From Macrosoma leucophasiata (lineage: Eukaryota > Arthropoda > Insecta > Lepidoptera > Hedylidae): a stretch of 64,000 bases of DNA. How positions within the stretch are numbered: position 1 is the stretch's first letter; the number at the start of each line of letters is the position of its first letter. Shown piece after piece: positions 600 through 60,455 of this stretch. The stretch spans positions 18,933,001 to 18,997,000 of the forward strand of contig JAWQUS010000016.1 of the NCBI GenBank assembly GCA_036365455.1. Reading direction: 5' to 3'. The notes below the pieces were generated by a model. The model was not told the DNA's origin. It did no database searches and saw only the letters and a list, made by a program, of their open reading frames with translations. Made by a program: the position numbers and the translations under genes.

Positions 600-977
600 G
601 AAAAAAGCGCGAAAAGTATTAATTTTGTAATGTAATTTTATATCTCTTGTCATAACGGTCAGTCAATTATTGTTTTAAACAGATGAATAGGTAGGAATTA
701 TTGATTGAAAATGAAATATATCTGTAACAACCAACATTAAACCGCGAACCCGCTAGTTAAAAATATGTTACTATATTGCATGCGGTTTTAATGCAGGTTT
801 CGTGTACGTGCCGCATATTTACATGAACCACACACGCACTTGTTATGCAGTCGTGATTTTATTTGAATTATATAGGAAGAATACAGCGCGTGCCTCCTGA
901 ATCAGTGTTTACATCACACTCGCACGATGTTGTTCACTTTTAATTGTTTACAATTTAATTGACTGTACTTTGAGGGT
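600..977. other. No recognised feature
   Basis: AT-rich sequence with no long ORF and no match to another part of the window that I could see. Confidence 0.5.
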
Positions 978-1345
978 GAAGCGCGCATGGTTCCGCGGCT
1001 GGTGTAGATCGGTAGCGATCTACTCGGTTAAGCGAGCCGGGCGCGGTCGGGTGTGTGATGGGTGATCGCTAGTGGCAAATTAAAATGTTTCCGTTGCTTT
1101 CCGTGCTTCGAAGGGCACGTTAATTCGTCGGTCCCGGTTGTAATCGATATATAGCAGTCGTTAAACCTTGTCGAGGGCCTTATCGGCGGTTTGAAAACAT
1201 CCGACAACGGGTTGGCCACTACCCCTTATCTCCACCAGCCTGCATTTGAGCAGCGTGGTGGAGTAAGCTCTAGGCCTCCTCCCAAGAAGGGGAGAGACTC
1301 GTGCCCAGCAGAGGGACGTATCAAGGGTTGCCATTATTATTATTA
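978..1345 (+). repeat. SINE family A, 5S rRNA-like head (A1)
   Basis: The element runs from gaagcgcgcatgg to ccattattattatt. In consensus the head contains gttaagca, cgggcgcggt and gatgggtgaccgc in the order and roughly the spacing of the internal promoter of insect 5S rRNA. This copy has drifted (gttaagcg, gggcgcggt, gatgggtgatcgc). The tail gactcgtgcccagcag plus (att)n resembles the 3' end of a LINE (see 9313). About eight copies lie in the window. The assignment as a 5S-derived SINE is inference from sequence likeness. Confidence 0.75.
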
Positions 1346-2225: not shown

Positions 2226-2332
2226 TTATAATATAACGCTACAAACATTATTGAACTGCGCACCCCATTACAAATACGATTAAAATAAAATAGCATACCT
2301 TTGGAACTCTTAAGCATAATACTTCCATTAAA

Positions 2333-3157
2333 GATGATGCGGTAATTGTTAGCTCTATACCATCTGGGCTACAAGCACTAGTCACAGTCATGAAAGAGGA
2401 TTGTATGGAGAAAGGCTTACAATTGAATGTGGATAAAACGAAAGTATTAGTATTTGAAAGAGATGAACAGAGAACAAATGCAAGGGTAGTAGTAGATGAT
2501 GCAGTGTTAGAACAGGTTGATGAAATTGTATATCTTGGATGTGCTTTTAGCAAGGATGGTAGGTACACCACTGACATAGAAAGAAGAGTGCTTGCTGGGA
2601 ATTGCGTGAATGGAGCGTTGGGTAAGCTGCTAGAATCTAAACATCTCAGCCAGCGGGCTCGACTAGCCGTACATAATGCTGTACTTACTCCAACGCTTTT
2701 ATATGGAAGCGAGAGCTGGGTATGCAGGAAAGAGCATGAAAGTAAGTTGAACGCGGTCGAGATGAGATCTTTGCGCAAGATCTGCGGTGTATCACTCACC
2801 GATCGCGTTCGTAATGAAGATGTAAGAAAGAGACTTTGTGTGAATGATAGTATCGGTGTAAAAATGAAAAAAGGCATGCTCCGATGGTTCGGGCATATAG
2901 AAAGAATGTCGAATGAGCGAATGACTAAACAGATATACAATGCGAATGTGGATGGTTGCAGAGGCCCAGGAAGACCAAGGCTGACTTACCATGACCAAAT
3001 AGGTCGAGTTCTGTCTGATGGTGGGGTCAAAAGTCTTAGGAATCGGCGTGCATGTATGAAGAGAATGATGAAGGTAGACGAGGCACGAGAGGTTTGTCAG
3101 AACCGGGATGTCTGGCGCTCTACACTCTCTGCCTACCCCGTTAGGGACCTGGCGTGA
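2333..3157 (+). CDS. LINE G reverse transcriptase, C-terminal part
   Basis: The frame is open from the insertion junction: DDAVIVSSIPSGLQALVTVM runs into the ORF that begins with ATG at 2390. DD is the end of the reverse-transcriptase (Y/F)xDD motif; VDKTKVLVFER and YLGCAFSKDG follow, then LTPTLLYGSESW, MLRWFGHIERM, GPGRPRLTYHDQ and the end WRSTLSAYPVRDLA. These are the late palm, thumb and C-terminal regions of an insect non-LTR retrotransposon ORF2, probably RTE-like. The endonuclease and most of the RT are missing, so it is dead although this part has no stop. It is the best preserved of six G fragments here. Confidence 0.9.
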   Translation, partial: DDAVIVSSIPSGLQALVTVMKEDCMEKGLQLNVDKTKVLVFERDEQRTNARVVVDDAVLEQVDEIVYLGCAFSKDGRYTTDIERRVLAGNCVNGALGKLLESKHLSQRARLAVHNAVLTPTLLYGSESWVCRKEHESKLNAVEMRSLRKICGVSLTDRVRNEDVRKRLCVNDSIGVKMKKGMLRWFGHIERMSNERMTKQIYNANVDGCRGPGRPRLTYHDQIGRVLSDGGVKSLRNRRACMKRMMKVDEAREVCQNRDVWRSTLSAYPVRDLA

Positions 3158-4517: not shown

Positions 4518-4620
4518 TTTCAGTAGCTTAGTGGTAAAGCGGTTGGATTGGTTATCCTGAGGTCGCAGGTTTGATACCTGCCCTTTTTCTTTCCATTTTT
4601 TATTTAATTTCTCAAGTACA
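4518..4620 (+). repeat. Family I retroposon fragment (tRNA-like)
   Basis: A tRNA-like run, tagcttagtggtaaagcg, then gaggtcgcaggtttgata, is followed by ctttttctttccatttttt, the typical I flank. The 5' side is not recognisable. It is not a functional tRNA: the acceptor stem does not close. Confidence 0.6.
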
Positions 4621-6032: not shown

Positions 6033-6410
6033 ATTTTATATTATTTCGCATTAACACATGCTTGTGAAATATATTTTATTTAAAAGAAAAATGGAATGAA
6101 AAATTTGACTTCAGGCGAGACGAGTGTAATGCGAAATAATATAAAACAATTATTAAGGGTAAAAGCGACTACTTTACGATATTCAATAAACTGCAAAGTC
6201 TATTATATAGGTTGCCTAACTAGCATAGTTGGCAATAGATGGCGCTGCTGCTACCATAAAGCAATGCAATAAATGTGAAAGAAAGATTTGACAAATCGGG
6301 CTGGACCTCAGTAGCTCAATGGGAAGAGCGGCTGGACTAGATTCCCAGTAGGCCGCGACTTCGTGTCTCGCCTGAAGTCAAATTTTTCTTTCCATTTTTC
6401 TTTAAAATAA
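6033..6410 (+). repeat. Family I retroposon with tRNA-like unit (I2)
   Basis: A perfect 13-bp duplication, aatggttatagtg, lies at 6020-6032 and 6411-6423. The left end carries an inverted copy of the right-end region: aagaaaaatggaatgaaaaa with ttgacttcaggcgagac is the complement of the sequence after the tRNA-like part. A body with agatggcgctgctgctacc follows, then a tRNA-like stretch at about 6305-6378. A tRNA-like unit near the 3' end, plus inverted ends and a retroposon-type duplication, is unusual. Confidence 0.85.
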
Positions 6411-8400: not shown

Positions 8401-8744
8401 GCCCTCCTGGGGTGAACAGTGCTGCACGGTCAGGGTCTTCACCTTGAACCCTCCCATGATCCCCAAACTCGTTATAATCTGACTAGGCGAGGTAACAGCG
8501 CCTCGCAGGCCGCGGCCCAAAAATTTACGTTGGGAACTTGTAGTAAGTTTTTATGTAAGCAAATAAGATTGTTTGTTCTCTTAAATAAAATAAAATAATT
8601 GCGCAGCTCATGTGAAAACTTCGTACGTGCGATTAAGAACGGGCGTACGCCATCTACAATTCTAGACAAGTAATTGTGTTTCCTCAGTGTTCCACTAGGT
8701 GGCGACGTATGAATATTAAAACATTATCCAGTTATTAACTTTTT
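8401..8744. other. No recognised feature
   Basis: It continues with the GC-richer ctcctggggtgaacagtgc and aggccgcggccc, then AT-rich DNA. No repeat partner was seen in the window. Confidence 0.4.
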
Positions 8745-9035
8745 ACTGGTGATAGAGCTCCAGTGGTTGAGCTCGAGGGCGTAGGCACCACCGCATTACC
8801 TTAATATACTTGCCGCTAAATGGTAGTGTTCAGCACTATCGTGTTCCGGTCAGGTGGTAATGTACGGCCCTGTAATTTCTGGCACAGATGCATAACACCT
8901 TAGGCCTCAGGAGTGGTAATGCATCTGCACTTTGACCTTGGACTTTGTGTGAGTGTCTATAGGCTGCAGTCATCACTTAACATCAATGTGAACTGCATGC
9001 TTGTTTACCACTACTACTGTATAAAAATAAAAAAA
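8745..9035 (+). repeat. Family B (B2)
   Basis: Full-length copy starting actggtgatagagctccagt and ending in an A-rich tail (ataaaaataaaaaaa). Confidence 0.8.
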
Positions 9036-9134
9036 CTAACCGAAGTAATCGTGCCCCGAGAGGGCCTGATTTAATACTTGTCACTATTGTCATCTGCCTT
9101 AGTAAAATACATCTGATGTTCCGTAAAATATGTC

Positions 9135-13399: not shown

Positions 13400-13756
13400 C
13401 AGCTATGGCAACCCATTATACGTCCCTTTGCATTGCACGAGTCTCTTCTCTTTTTGGGGGGAGGCCTGGAGCTTACTCCACCACGCTGCTCCAATGTGGA
13501 TTGGTGGAGATACGGGTTAGTGGCCAACCCGCTGTCGGATGTTTTCAAACCGCCCATAAGGCCTCCGACATGGTTTAACGACTGCTATCTATCGATAGCA
13601 ACCGGGACCGACGGCTTAACGTGCCCTCCGAAGAACGGAAACGCGCATTTTAATTTGCCACTAGCGGTCACCCATCACACACCCGACCGCGCTCGTAATG
13701 CTAAACCAAGTAGATCGCTTACGATCTACACCAGCCGCGGGGCCATGCGCGCTTCA
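13400..13756 (-). repeat. SINE family A (A2)
   Basis: Minus copy from tggcaacccattata to ggccatgcgcgcttca. The 5S-like motifs are present in complement (gcggtcacccatcac). Confidence 0.8.
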
Positions 13757-16806: not shown

Positions 16807-17168
16807 TTGAAGCGCGCATGGCCCGGTGGCTGGTGTAGATCGTATGCGATCTACTCGGTTAAGCACTACGGACGCGGTCGGGTAGTGTGATGGGTGACCG
16901 CTAGTGGTAAAATTAAATGCGCGTTTCGGAGGGCACATTAAGCCGTCGGTCCCGGTTGCTATCGATAGACAGCAGTCGTTAAACCTTGTCGGAGGCCTTA
17001 GGGGCAGTTTGAAAACATCCGACACCGGGTTGACCACTCACCCGTATCTCCACCAATCCGCATTGGAGCAACGTGGTGGAGTAAGCTCCAGGCCTCCCCC
17101 CAAAGAGGGGAGAGACTCGTGCCCAGCAGTGGGACGTATAATGGGTTGCCATTATTATTATTATATAT
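16807..17168 (+). repeat. SINE family A (A3)
   Basis: Full plus copy with cggttaagcactacgg, gatgggtgaccgc and tail ccattattattattat. ttaaatt occurs just outside both ends, a possible short target duplication. Confidence 0.85.
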
Positions 17169-24305: not shown

Positions 24306-24782
24306 TTATATGGAAGCGAGAGCTGGGTATGCAGGAAAGAGCATGAAAGTAAGTTGAACGCGGTCGAGATGAGATCTTTGCGCAAGATCTGCGGTGTCAC
24401 TCACCGATCGCGTTCGTAATGAAGATGTAAGAAAGAGATTTTGTGTGAATGATAGTATCGGTGTAAAAATGAAAAAAGGCATGCTCCGATGGTTCGGGCA
24501 TATAGAAAGAATGTCGAATGAGCGAATGACTAAACAGATATACAATGCGAATGTGGATGGTTGCAGAGGCCCAGGAAGACCAAGGCTGACCAACCATGAC
24601 CAAATAGGTCGAGTTCTGTCTGATGGTGGGGTCAAAAGTCTTAGGAATCGGCGTGAATGTATGAAGAGAATGATGAAGGTAGACGAGGCACGAGAGGTTT
24701 GTCTGAACCGGGAAATCTGGCGCTCTACACTCTCTGCCTACCCCGTTAGGGACCTGGCGTGAAGATACATACATACATACAT
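24306..24782 (+). pseudogene. LINE G C-terminus with frameshift (G3)
   Basis: Nearly identical to 2697-3175 but missing two bases in the codons for CGVSLTDR (gcggtgtcactc against gcggtgtatcactc), which shifts the frame. After that it reads on to WRSTLSAYPVRDLA, ending in (cata)n. atctat lies at both borders, a possible target duplication. Confidence 0.9.
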
Positions 24783-24786
24783 CTAT

Positions 24787-25352
24787 CGCCAAATGCTAGT
24801 GTTCAGCACTGTCATGTTCCGTTTAGATGGTAATGTATTGCCAATTAATAAATATCACAGAAAGCGCGCATGGCCCCGTGGCTGGTGTAAATCGTAACCG
24901 ATCTATTCGGTTAAGCATTACGGGCGCGGTCGGTGTGATGGGTGACCGCTAAAGGTAAATTAATATGCGCGTTTCCGTGCTTCGGAGGGCACGTTAAGCC
25001 GTCGTGCCCGGTTGCTATCGATAGATAGCAGTCGGTAAACCTTGTCGGAGGCCTTATCGGCGGTTTGAAAACATCCTACAGCGGGTTGGCCACTAACCCG
25101 TATCTCCACCAATCCGCATTGGAGCAGCGTGGTGGAGTAAGCGCCGGGCCTCCCCCCAAAAAAGGGGAGAGACTCGTGCCCAGCAGTGGGACGTATAATG
25201 GGTTGCCATTATTATTATTATTAACTATCACAGAGGGAAAACAACTAAGGCTCTAAGATGACAGCGCATTTGCATTTTGACCTTCGGTTTTTGTAGTTGT
25301 CTATAGGCTGTAGTATTCACTAACCATCAACGTGAACTGCTAGCTTGTTTGC
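24787..25352 (+). repeat. Family B' copy split by SINE A
   Basis: Left part 24787-24861 (cgccaaatgctagtgttcag, gttccgtttagatgg) and right part 25226-25352 (ctatcacagagggaaaacaa ... agcttgtttgccacc) belong to one B' copy. SINE A4 lies between them. Confidence 0.8.
24862..25225 (+). repeat. SINE family A (A4), inside B'
   Basis: Target duplication tatcacaga at 24853-24861 and 25226-25234 gives exact ends for a full-length A. Head motifs: cggttaagcattacgg, gggcgcggtc, gatgggtgaccgc. Tail: (att)n. Confidence 0.9.
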
Positions 25353-25451
25353 CACCATCAGTAAGTACATAAAATTGGTACAGTTTGGAAATAGAATTTC
25401 GGTTTGGAACTATCCCGAGATTTTTAAAAATTTAAATAAGGTGGCACACAA

Positions 25452-25695
25452 GTGATGATTAAAAAGATATATAATGGGAATGTGGATAGTTGCAGAGGCC
25501 CAGGAAGACCAAGACTGACCTACCATGACCAAATAGGTCGAGTTCTGTCTGATGGTGGGGTCAAAAGTCTTAGGAATCGGCGCGCATGTATGACGAGAAT
25601 GATGAAGGTAGTCGAGGCACGAGAGGTATGTCGGGACCGGGATATCTGGCGCTCTACACTCTCTGCCTACCCCGTTAGGGACCTGGCGTGAAGAT
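25452..25695 (+). pseudogene. LINE G C-terminus (G4)
   Basis: An open frame of 79 codons: IKKIYNGNVDSCRGPGRPRL to WRSTLSAYPVRDLA. 5' truncated. The tail is atatatata rather than (cata)n. Confidence 0.88.
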
Positions 25696-25699
25696 ATAT

Positions 25700-26275
25700 A
25701 TATAATAAATGTTTTTTAATCACCGAACGGAAACAATAGCTAAACGAACATATAACGTTGTGAAATGTAACAAAACTATAATATATTTAGCAACACGATC
25801 ACGGAACTGATAAACTGTTATCTATCCTTTTCTATCTAATTGCGTTTGGCATAATGTCGCGCGTGCATAACCTTGCATGGACTCAGTACAGTTTGGTATG
25901 GCTTCTTGTTCTGGTGTTGGTCCATATTTTATAACGAGTGTTCTGTTTGGTGTAGTGTAGCATTGTGACATTACAATATCTGTTATTTTAACAAATGTCA
26001 ACGCATATAACACGGCTAAATGCTTCACAATGGAACGGGAGCGAGCAATAAAATAATAGAATAGCATTCAATTGGCCACCTTATTCCCATCATAGAATCA
26101 TTCATTTTAAGGCCGAGTACACATAAGCGAGTTTCGTTTGTATAAAGATCGTATAGAACTACGAAAGTTTTTCTTTTGAATGGGAACATAAAATGAGACC
26201 CACGTTCTCTGACTCGTTTCTTCGTACCGCGGTCATAAACAAGTGAAACAAACTTTTGATAGTTTATAAATTAAA
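25700..26275. other. No recognised feature
   Basis: AT-rich. Short frames here look like chance. Confidence 0.45.
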
Positions 26276-33712: not shown

Positions 33713-33733
33713 ATGTACTACTAATCTTCATCA

Positions 33734-34073
33734 AATCTGAAGCGCGCATGGCCCAGCGGCTGGTGTAGATCGTAAGCGATCTACTCGGTTAAGCACTACG
33801 GGCGCGGTCGGGTAGTGTGATGGGTGACCGCTAGTGGCAAATTACGAGTAAATGCTCGTTTCCGTGCTTCGGAGGGCACGCTAAGCCGTCGGTCCCGGTT
33901 GCTATCGATGGATAGCAGTTGGTACATCCGACAGCGGGTTGGCCACTAACCCACCCACCTCCACTAATCCGCATTGGAGCAGCATGGTGGAGTAAGCTCC
34001 AGGCCTGCCCCCAAAAAGGGAGAGACTCGTGCCCAGCAGTGGGACGTATAATGTGTTGCCATTATTATTATTA
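33734..34073 (+). repeat. SINE family A (A5)
   Basis: 12-bp target duplication taatcttcatca at 33722-33733 and 34074-34085. The head keeps gatctactcggttaagcact, gggcgcggtcgggtagtg and gatgggtgaccgc. About 35 bp are deleted in the middle. Confidence 0.92.
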
Positions 34074-34329
34074 TAATCTTCATCACCCGTCGGGGTGGGG
34101 GATATCTGTCCCCGAAGCGTCGAGGGCGTGATCGAAGAGAGGCGATGCAAGCACGCAAGGAAACTCGCTAATAAAGCCATATACATTTTTATTTGTTTTT
34201 TTTTTGATAAAGAATTTTAGCGTTTTTTATGTTTGTAGATATATTTTTTTTTGGCATATTCTCTTTTCTACCTGAGCTATTCCCTCGCGTGTCGCTTACA
34301 ATTGATCTTGGGCAAGATTTTAGAGATTT

Positions 34330-42903: not shown

Positions 42904-42916
42904 TAAGAATTAAGAA

Positions 42917-42985
42917 CTAGGCCTTCCCCCAAAAAGGAGAGGGACTCGTGCCCAGCAGAGGGACGTATAATGGGTTGCCATTATT
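42917..42985 (+). repeat. SINE family A 3' end (A6)
   Basis: aggccttcccccaaaaagga to gggttgccattatta. Confidence 0.7.
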
Positions 42986-43009
42986 AAGCAAAGCAACGCC
43001 ACGGCAACG

Positions 43010-43140
43010 GATCTTTAGAATCCCATCACCCACTATCGAAAGAATTCTCTTCCATGGTAGTGAATTCTTCCGCTAGTGCAGTCAGTGAACCTAACAATGG
43101 TAACGTATCAAGGGTTGCCATTATTAAAATTATAATAGCT
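43010..43140 (+). repeat. Repeat X fragment (X3) with an A-like tail
   Basis: agaattctcttccatggtag, gaattcttccgctagtgcag, then caagggttgccattatta. Confidence 0.4.
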
Positions 43141-43269: not shown

Positions 43270-43809
43270 TTAGCCTCGCTCATAATAATATTAATAATTA
43301 GAAGTGAAGCGGGGAAGCCCGCTCCGAGCTCGAGAATACTCGAGAGTGATGGTGAAACCGGGGCCACACCTCTCGACACCCCCAGCCTCTCTCAACAGTG
43401 TTGCCCCCTGTCGACCATCGGGTTGGCTGTTTGGGGGGCCCACCAAGGAGAGGCGAGTCACCACCTGCCTAAAGTAGGATTCGATAATGTGAGATGTTGA
43501 ATATAGGCAGGTGCCGGATCTCACTCCATAGGCCCAGCCAGCTAGTCCCCCCAGTTCACCCACATAGCCCAAAGTTTGGCAAATCACTTTTCATTACAAT
43601 AGTCCCATTATATTCTGCGGGGTCTGTCTGTGTCTGTATTGACTATTGATGCAGCCAGAGAGAGGTCCCGCCGAATATAACCCATTACAAAGTAGATCAA
43701 AATTCTCGAAAGGGCCTCTACGTGTTGGACTCCCCATGTCCCCGCGCAAGCCTGACAAAGGTCCGGGGTTCAAATTGGACCCCGTGCTGACGAGAGACTT
43801 AATAATTAT
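43270..43809 (+). repeat. LINE F 3' region
   Basis: GC-richer non-coding text (gcggggaagcccgctccgag, ggtcccgccgaatataaccc) ends gtccggggttcaaattggac, ccgtgctgacgagagactta and ataattatt. The last part recurs inverted at 1346. LINE is inferred from the fixed 3' end with a short-repeat tail; no ORF is visible. Confidence 0.45.
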
Positions 43810-44200: not shown

Positions 44201-44473
44201 TTTATTTTAAAGAAAAATTTGAATTCAGGCGAGACTCGAACTCGCGGCCTACTGGGAATCCAGTCCAGCCGCTCTTGCAATTGAGCTACTGAAGTCCTAA
44301 AATTTGACTTCAGGCGTGACTTCAGTAGCTCAATTGGAAGAGCGGCTGGACTGGATTCCCAGTAGGCCGCGAGTTCGAGTCTCGCCTGAAGTCAATTTTT
44401 TCTTTCCATTTTTCTTTAAAATAAAAATATATTTCACAAGCATGTGTTAATGCGAAATAATATAAAAAAAACA
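44201..44473 (+). repeat. Family I retroposon with two inverted tRNA-like units (I4)
   Basis: 12-bp duplication aataataatgtt at 44189-44200 and 44474-44485. A minus tRNA-like unit (44223-44296) faces a plus unit (44319-44392). The plus unit has acttcag/ctgaagt acceptor, gctc/gagc D stem and gcgag/ctcgc T stem with loop ttcgagt; the anticodon arm is irregular (two bases before the stem, a mismatch). It ends aatgcgaaataatataaaaa. Confidence 0.9.
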
Positions 44474-46289: not shown

Positions 46290-46556
46290 ATTTCACAAGC
46301 ATGTGTTAATGCGAAATAATATAAAACAATTATTAAGGGTAAAAGCGACTTCTTTATGATATTCAATAAACTGAACATAGTTGGCAATAGATGGCGCTGC
46401 TGCTACCATAAAGCAATGCAATAGATGTGAAGGAAAGATTTGACAGGACTTTAGTAGCTCAATTGGAAGAGCGGCTGGACTAGATTCCCAGTAGGCCGCG
46501 AGTTCGAGTCTCGCCTGAAGTCAAATTTTTCTTTCCATTTTTCTTTAAAAATAAAA
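46290..46556 (+). repeat. Family I retroposon (I5)
   Basis: The 22-bp repeat beginning tatatgaaacagcgtctaag lies at 46268-46289 and again at 46615-46636, and aaaaaagttaaa at 46242 and 46557. The element has the I body (gatggcgctgctgctaccat) and one plus tRNA-like unit near 46446-46522. Confidence 0.8.
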
Positions 46557-48060: not shown

Positions 48061-48429
48061 TTAAAAGTCTGCGAATTTGCACTGAGTTTTGTTTAACCTA
48101 ATTCCGAAGTTATCGGACCCTCCGAATAAGCTGGTCGAGATCAATTTATGGTCGAAGAAGACGCCGGCGTCGAGAAGTAAACACCAAACCTGACCACGTG
48201 CGTCGTCAAGATCAATAACCAGATCTGCGGTACCTCGGTACAGTCTCCAATTTGGTGAGTGGCTTGCACGTTTGTTATTGGGGTGTTTGATCCGGGGGGG
48301 TGGGTGATCTGGTGCCGAAATTTTGAGAGTCATCATCATACTGTATTCAGGATTTATAATCCACCTTGGTGTGGACTTTTTACACGTCCCATCAGAGTTG
48401 AATATTATTAACTTTAAAATTATTAACCC
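48061..48429 (-). other. Unidentified open frame
   Basis: An open minus-strand frame of ~125 codons runs from the A7 junction: TPRWIINPEYSMMM, NWRLYRGTADLVIDLDDARG, VFFDHKLISTSLFGG. The GC content is higher than in the flanks. FDHKLI vaguely recalls the SDHxxI end of LINE endonucleases, but this is too weak to call. Confidence 0.3.
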
Positions 48430-48541
48430 TCCACCAATCCGCATTGGAGCAGCGTGGTGGAGTTAGCTCCAGGCCTCCCCCTTAAAACGGGAGAGACTCG
48501 TGTCCAGCAGTGGGACGTATAATGGGTTGCCATTATTATTA
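48430..48541 (+). repeat. SINE family A 3' end (A7)
   Basis: ccaccaatccgcattggagc to gggttgccattattatt. Confidence 0.8.
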
Positions 48542-48547
48542 TATTGT

Positions 48548-52347: not shown

Positions 52348-52577
52348 TTGTTTTATATTATTTCGCATTAACACATGCTTGCCTAACTAGCATAGTTGGT
52401 AATAGATGGCGCTGCTGCTACCATAAAGCAATGCAATAGATGTGAAGGAAAGATTTGACAAAAACGGGCAGGGCTTCAGTAGCTCAATTGGAAGAGCAGC
52501 TGGACTAGATTCCCAGTAGGTCGCGAGTTCGAGTCTCGCCTGAAGTCAAATTTTTCTTTCCATTTTTCTTTAAAAAT
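52348..52577 (+). repeat. Family I retroposon, internally deleted (I6)
   Basis: 16-bp duplication aaaaaattgtatatat at 52332-52347 and 52578-52593. The left end matches 6033 (ttttatattatttcgcatta) and then jumps from acatgcttg straight to cctaactagcatagttgg, skipping ~150 bp. The tRNA-like unit is at about 52475-52549. Confidence 0.9.
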
Positions 52578-59899: not shown

Positions 59900-60271
59900 T
59901 AGATTTTGTGCCCAAATATAAAAACAAATGTATTCATCGGAATGGGTCGCCGGTTAACTGTATCGAGCATAGGAAAATCATTAGACTAATTAAAATAACT
60001 ATCCCTATCTAGAAATCTAGTTTCCTAAACAATTCAACAATACGACTTATAATTCAGAGAGGCTGGGCGGCCCCAATTATTCAACATGGACGAGTTAACA
60101 AACATTGGAATACATTATCACACAATATATTCAACTGCAGTACTGGACGACATGTTCCTACTCGTACATTGTGGTAGCCGGAAGACTATGGAGCTGGGAC
60201 ATTTTCATAATGATAAAGTAGGTTACATATTTGGGTTCACTTTTTGTTTTTAAACTGGCAAATTAGCTTAA
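59900..60271. other. No recognised feature
   Basis: AT-rich, nothing recognised. Confidence 0.4.
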
Positions 60272-60453
60272 TAATGGCAACCCTTGAAATGTCCCAGTGC
60301 TGGGCACGGGTCTCTCCCCTTTTTGAGGACAGGCCTGGAGCTTATCCCACCACGCTGCTTCAATGCGAGTTGGTGGAGATACTGCGGTCACTCATCACAC
60401 ACCCGACCGCGCCCGTATCGCTAACTACACCAGCCGCGGGGCCATGCGCGCTT
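60272..60453 (-). repeat. SINE family A, internally deleted (A8)
   Basis: aatggcaacccttgaaatgt to accagccgcggggccatgcg, with ~180 bp missing from the middle. Confidence 0.75.
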
Positions 60454-60455
60454 CC

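Follow-up and report, generated by a model that had tools for sequence, protein, structure and literature searches.

The segment at positions 33734–34073 (plus strand) of the 64-kb stretch of DNA analysed here, which we call the window, is one copy of a short interspersed element (SINE), family A, with a unit of about 362 bp and a 3′ end made of (ATT)n. A BLAST search with this segment as query found eight copies in the window, bearing out the initial annotation, which had described a repeated element at this locus. Alignment shows that six of the eight keep a head: A1 (977–1345, plus strand), A2 (13405–13756, minus strand), A3 (16808–17163, plus strand), A4 (24862–25225, plus strand), the query copy A5, and A6 (60269–60454, minus strand), whose middle is deleted, leaving the 3′ end and a portion of the head. 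The other two are 5′-truncated, A7 (42911–42986, plus strand) to the 3′ end only and A8 (48428–48542, plus strand) to the 3′ body and tail. Lying 117 bases past A7 is a 24-base piece (43103–43126) whose resemblance is limited to the final bases of the SINE tail, in the form found in A1; it is either an extremely truncated copy or a chance match.

A5 is composed of a 5S-like head, a body and an (ATT)n tail (34061–34073, plus strand, as read from the sequence); the recognisable start of the element, GAAGCGCGC, is at 33739 (plus strand) and is preceded by five extra bases. Aligned with A4, it lacks 34 internal bases, and A4 is therefore the better full-length example. A consensus of 362 nt was built from 13 copies, eight of which come from other parts of the genome and five from the window, to which the copies are 89–98% identical (A1, at 90.0%, is the most diverged among the five window copies included); it replaced an earlier consensus of 361 nt that was one base shorter between the intermediate element (IE) and the C box.

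Eight copies had been thought to share three motifs in a fixed order. The eight copies and, within the heads, the order of the motifs are as described, but heads are found in only six copies and all three motifs are exact in only two, A4 and A5. The A3 head has a one-base change in one motif, the A1 and A2 heads have two changes each, and in A6 the second motif is intact, the third has one change, and GTTAAGCA is absent from its place. The gapped triple TTAAGCA-CGGGCGCGGT-GATGGGTGACCGC has two exact matches in the window, at 24911–24949 (the 5S-like promoter triple of A4, plus strand) and at 33789–33831, compared to none in each of 100 shuffles. At up to three mismatches, GATGGGTGACCGC by itself has 22 window matches, where shuffles average 6.73 and reach at most 15; ten of the 22 have the identical sequence GATGCGTTACCAC, each of them inside another repeat, family B. 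This second repeat is very abundant and about 290–300 bp long, running from ACTGGTGGTAGAGCTCC to an A run; it is represented by 8735–9036 and 30 other BLAST rows across the window, 17 longer copies were aligned, and the repeat hosts A4.

Element ends and target sites

The exact target duplications attributed to the copies at 24862 and 33734 are both present: A4 is flanked by the 9-bp sequence TATCACAGA (24853–24861 on the left and 25226–25234 on the right), and A5 by the 12-bp sequence TAATCTTCATCA (33722–33733 and 34074–34085). A4, the best-defined copy, interrupts its family-B repeat, and its flanks, when joined with a single TATCACAGA, align across the junction to the family-B consensus. 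The joined flanks thus represent the empty site, which fixes both ends of the element at 24862 and 25225 (364 bp) and, together with the duplication, confirms that the full unit is well defined. Exact duplications of at least 9 bp adjoin none of the other four head-bearing window copies; A6 has an imperfect candidate of 11 bases, separated from the element, which about 2% of shuffles equal.

Among seven copies examined elsewhere in the genome, six have candidate shared flank words of 6–12 bp, some of them not adjoining the element and all scored without a chance control; the seventh, L010, has no shared flank word. Candidate target duplications, 9 and 13 bp long, flank two of four very short copies elsewhere (L070 and L046) and fit target-primed reverse transcription with 5′ truncation. 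Directly after the tail, A1 and two genomic copies (L048 and L055) carry nearly the same sequence (GTCTCTCGTCAG..ACGGGG; 1346–1388 and 43757–43798), which reflects either insertion of all three into one repeat or a larger unit that includes the SINE copies.

Similarity of the head to host 5S rRNA

Host 5S genes were located in the assembly (615,993,266 bases in 61 contigs) with the Rfam model RF00001, which gave at least 42 matches, all above its cut-off, from 47 scored among 25,798 first-look candidates. The reference used below is the commonest sequence in 30 fetched loci, and its count of 50 is redundant because the loci overlap. The matches listed lie on contigs C2, C4, C7, C9, C21 and C28, in both orientations and unevenly spaced, not as a single ordered array. 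The reference agrees with Bombyx 5S at 117 of 120 positions, and Spodoptera 5S primers match it with one and no mismatch; both fit a lepidopteran host, as does the range in which SINEs of this type are known.

Element nt 50–93 align with host 5S nt 51–94, with 36 of 45 columns in agreement and 44 nt contributed by each. In A5 this 5S-like internal control region, placed by alignment to the host 5S, spans 33788–33831 (plus strand) and includes part of the A box (33788–33795), the IE (33799–33808) and the C box (33819–33831). The strict local score of nt 1–130 against the host 5S is 42, whereas shuffled sequences have a mean of 15.1 and a maximum of 33 (z 12.0; 0 of 5000 as good), which supports the proposal of a 5S-derived SINE. 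Taken singly, each of A1–A5 outscores every one of its 1000 shuffles, A2 with a margin of a single point; for A6, 5 of 1000 shuffles do as well. Under the same scoring, no score above 24 is seen among 6062 background stretches taken from the window, and A1–A5 range from 26 to 42.

The C box GATGGGTGACCGC also lies within 5S primers printed for a copepod (PMC4664967) and an oyster (PMC4778033) and, reverse-complemented, within one printed for Spodoptera litura (PMC3269709). A string search of the literature found the C-box string printed in 5S primers and in a human small RNA, and further 5S strings, in the papers examined, in 5S primers.

The initial annotation had proposed aligning the first ~95 bases to 5S rRNA; the promoter block of ~44 nt matches, but the rest of these bases do not do so convincingly. 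Outside the block, shuffles align globally as well as the element does in 42% of cases for nt 1–31, 43% for nt 94–131 and 53% for the body, and nt 32–49 are borderline, with 4% of shuffles as good globally and 12% locally. The promoter nevertheless lies 49 nt from the 5′ end of the element versus 50 nt in 5S, and the head is thus a 5S control region behind a leader of 5S-like length that is unrelated or fully diverged. The Rfam 5S model has no match on the element even at lax thresholds, which suggests that only a fragment of 5S has been kept, rather than that the head is unrelated to it; the Rfam scan returned one weak match, to an lncRNA family (E 0.39), which we take as chance. The A5 head folds no better than its shuffles (z −0.47), which gives no reason to think that the 5S fold has been kept.

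Features of a tRNA-type promoter can be picked out in the same heads, and would make the head tRNA-derived (as in SINE2 elements) and its 5S likeness incidental. A stretch resembling an A box (TGGCCCAGCGG in A5) begins at consensus nt 11, and the pattern TRGYNNARNGG fits A5 with no mismatch and the other five heads with one; a loose B-box pattern fits with one mismatch at consensus nt 40. The full B box, however, has 3–4 mismatches of 11 across the six heads, the Rfam tRNA model has no match on A4 or on the A5 head, ARAGORN calls no tRNA there, and the 5S match stands far above shuffles, so we regard a tRNA origin of the head as very improbable. With its B box mismatched and no Rfam tRNA match, family A does not group with the tRNA-headed SINEs.

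Proposed transcription and mobilisation, and abundance

The best explanation of these features, to which we give a probability of about 0.93, is that family A is a 5S-headed SINE of the SINE3 type, which would be transcribed by RNA polymerase III and mobilised by a LINE. Nucleotides 50–93 are a 5S internal control region, which would recruit RNA polymerase III; given the near-identical offset of the promoter in element and gene, the polymerase most likely starts at the first base of the element. The reverse transcriptase of a putative partner LINE would then recognise the 3′ end with its (ATT)n and copy the RNA into new sites. TTTT is absent from both the 361-nt and the 13-copy consensus, although this is weak evidence, since 1344 of 2000 shuffles are likewise free of it.

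The (ATT)n tail reported earlier is present in the copies seen and follows GGGTTGCC. We found no partner LINE with the same tail among the tail-variant sites looked at, which were 30 of 33 in one design and four of 72 in a second. In the first, BLAST places SINE body in the 1.5 kb upstream of 26 of the 30 fetched sites, and the remaining four have the tail alone in common with each other. In the second, four sites were fetched from 14 of one form, each with roughly 900 bases of upstream sequence; every one of them matches the SINE 3′ end, three also with an earlier piece and one (L073) over nt 292–360 only, and their longest forward frames are 54–81 aa, far below the size of a reverse transcriptase. 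For an assumed form of a (TGA)n tail, GCCCAGCAGTGGGA followed by TGATGATGATG within 6–16 bases has no match in the assembly, a count that does not prove its rarity. The window itself contains three fragments resembling one LINE reverse transcriptase family (2294–3157, 24373–24762 and 25410–25715), the first matching PF00078 below its cut-off; none of the three is among the listed matches of the SINE consensus.

Across the 616-Mb assembly, 13,390 occurrences of the C-box 13-mer were counted (6676 + 6714), a number that takes in the 5S genes themselves, compared to 149 (79 + 70) for a reversed control. All eight C-box sites that were fetched, which head the listing and are confined to contig C1, carry the family A SINE at 82–96%. 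The exact C box is present in only four of the six window heads, so the heads in the genome may somewhat exceed 13,000, which is an estimate and not a count. Degenerate 5S pseudogenes, or a chance 13-mer repeat, might be proposed in place of a mobile element, and 5S retropseudogenes are known in animals. We consider this scarcely credible in view of the ~362-nt unit with body and tail that the full copies have in common, the empty site and target duplication at A4, and the presence of the family A unit at every one of the eight fetched C-box sites.

A relocated 5S promoter is expected to be silent or weak in published discussions (PMC3272025, PMC8010984), and the success of family A would run contrary to this. 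Somewhat short of an even chance, in our estimate, is the reading that family A is an unusually successful 5S-promoter SINE, which reached well over 10,000 copies although only the 44-base control region and its spacing survive, and with a head that is perhaps older or from another lineage. The family could be used to test whether a type 1 RNA polymerase III promoter needs upstream sequence.

The IE of family A is CGGGCGCGGT, which the Drosophila and Bombyx 5S genes also carry at this position. All six printed forms of the host 5S have GCGCGTT at the IE, five as CGGGCGCGTT and one as TGGGCGCGTT. On the simplest reading of these sequences, the head was captured before the 5S of the host lineage changed; less simply, it may have come from a different lineage, or the SINE may have undergone a back change. 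This one-base IE difference between host 5S and SINE means that the family could help to date the capture of the head.

Relatives of family A

SINEs with 5S heads have already been published from Lepidoptera, and family A belongs to this known kind. As is expected of SINE3 elements, its head resembles 5S over all three promoter boxes (A, IE and C), which keep the order and spacing of the gene, and its short copies are scattered, start at a defined 5′ end and, in A4 and A5, lie between target duplications. HaSE3 of Helicoverpa armigera is described as a 5S-headed SINE (SINE3) with an RTE-type end (PMC3272025); like family A it has a 5S-derived head, strongest over the A, IE and C boxes, and a body, followed in HaSE3 by a LINE-type 3′ end, and target duplications are reported there for two of its relatives in H. 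subflexa. The two differ in their tails, HaSE3 sharing with HaSE1 a 3′ end of TGA repeats, in contrast to the (ATT)n of family A, and in abundance, HaSE3 being said to be much scarcer than HaSE1 (PMC3272025), whereas C boxes number 13,390 in the assembly studied here. In PMC7764229, 85 H. armigera sequences are assigned to HaSE3. Lacking the HaSE1-type TGA-repeat 3′ end, family A is probably not HaSE3 itself.

HaSE3 does raise the possibility that family A is a chimera, in which a 5S promoter replaced the head of an older tRNA-headed SINE, leaving a HaSE1-like body and tail. HaSE3, for which such an exchange is proposed, shares its body and tail with the tRNA-headed HaSE1 (PMC3272025), and the tRNA-headed ObSE2 shares a 122-bp centre with the 5S-headed PxSE4 (PMC8010984). 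Against this, no tRNA-headed element with the family A body was found in the window and 69 further sequences (272,664 bases), most of which had been selected on motifs of the SINE itself or as 5S loci. We hold a chimeric origin to be a serious but distinctly minority possibility.

Further lepidopteran elements described in PMC8010984, PxSE4, LaSE2, CsSE2 and PxSE5, are 294–389 bp long and resemble family A in having 5S heads with A, IE and C boxes, and the Plutella pair of 5S-headed SINEs is given there as ~63% identical to Bombyx 5S. Their tails are (TGA)n in PxSE4 and CsSE2 and (ATGT)n in PxSE5, with that of LaSE2 listed as not determined, unlike the (ATT)n of family A (PMC8010984). Copy numbers of 4415 for PxSE4, 1214 for LaSE2, 532 for CsSE2 and 1952 for PxSE5 are given in the same source, counted differently from those of family A. 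SINE3-1_LyPhl, SINE3-1_ChrCul, SINE3-2_ChrCul and SINE3-1_EnnFus have, as family A does, a conserved promoter and diverged upstream sequence (PMC10886601), and family A may be an orthologue of one of these, as far as their descriptions allow a comparison. More distantly, vertebrate SINE3 elements and SINE3-1_TC of Tribolium likewise have heads with a 5S-type RNA polymerase III promoter (PMC3272025, PMC7245038), and are described as mobilised by LINEs of the CR1 and, seemingly, the I clade (PMC7245038). We saw no link to 5S in what PMC6685494 gives on the heliconiine Metulj SINEs.

Body and tail strings of family A were not found printed in the article texts searched, though Repbase or Dfam may list it; family A is perhaps an unlisted family, but may be identical with one of those published. 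Searches of IMG/VR with six patterns gave only two contigs, with a chance 14-base match from one pattern, and searches of prokaryote contigs found no relatives. With family A, the 5S-headed SINEs known from Lepidoptera gain a member that is well bounded and present in high copy number, and comparison with the host's own 5S gene shows directly which bases have persisted, namely the promoter and its spacing.

The window also contains a repeated tRNA-like sequence, at 44220–44394, 46447–46523, 52472–52548, 6305–6379 and 4523–4582, which may be a dispersed tRNA-derived repeat. Four of its copies are called tRNA-Ser by ARAGORN, and two form a back-to-back inverted pair in which the plus-strand copy is followed by a T run.
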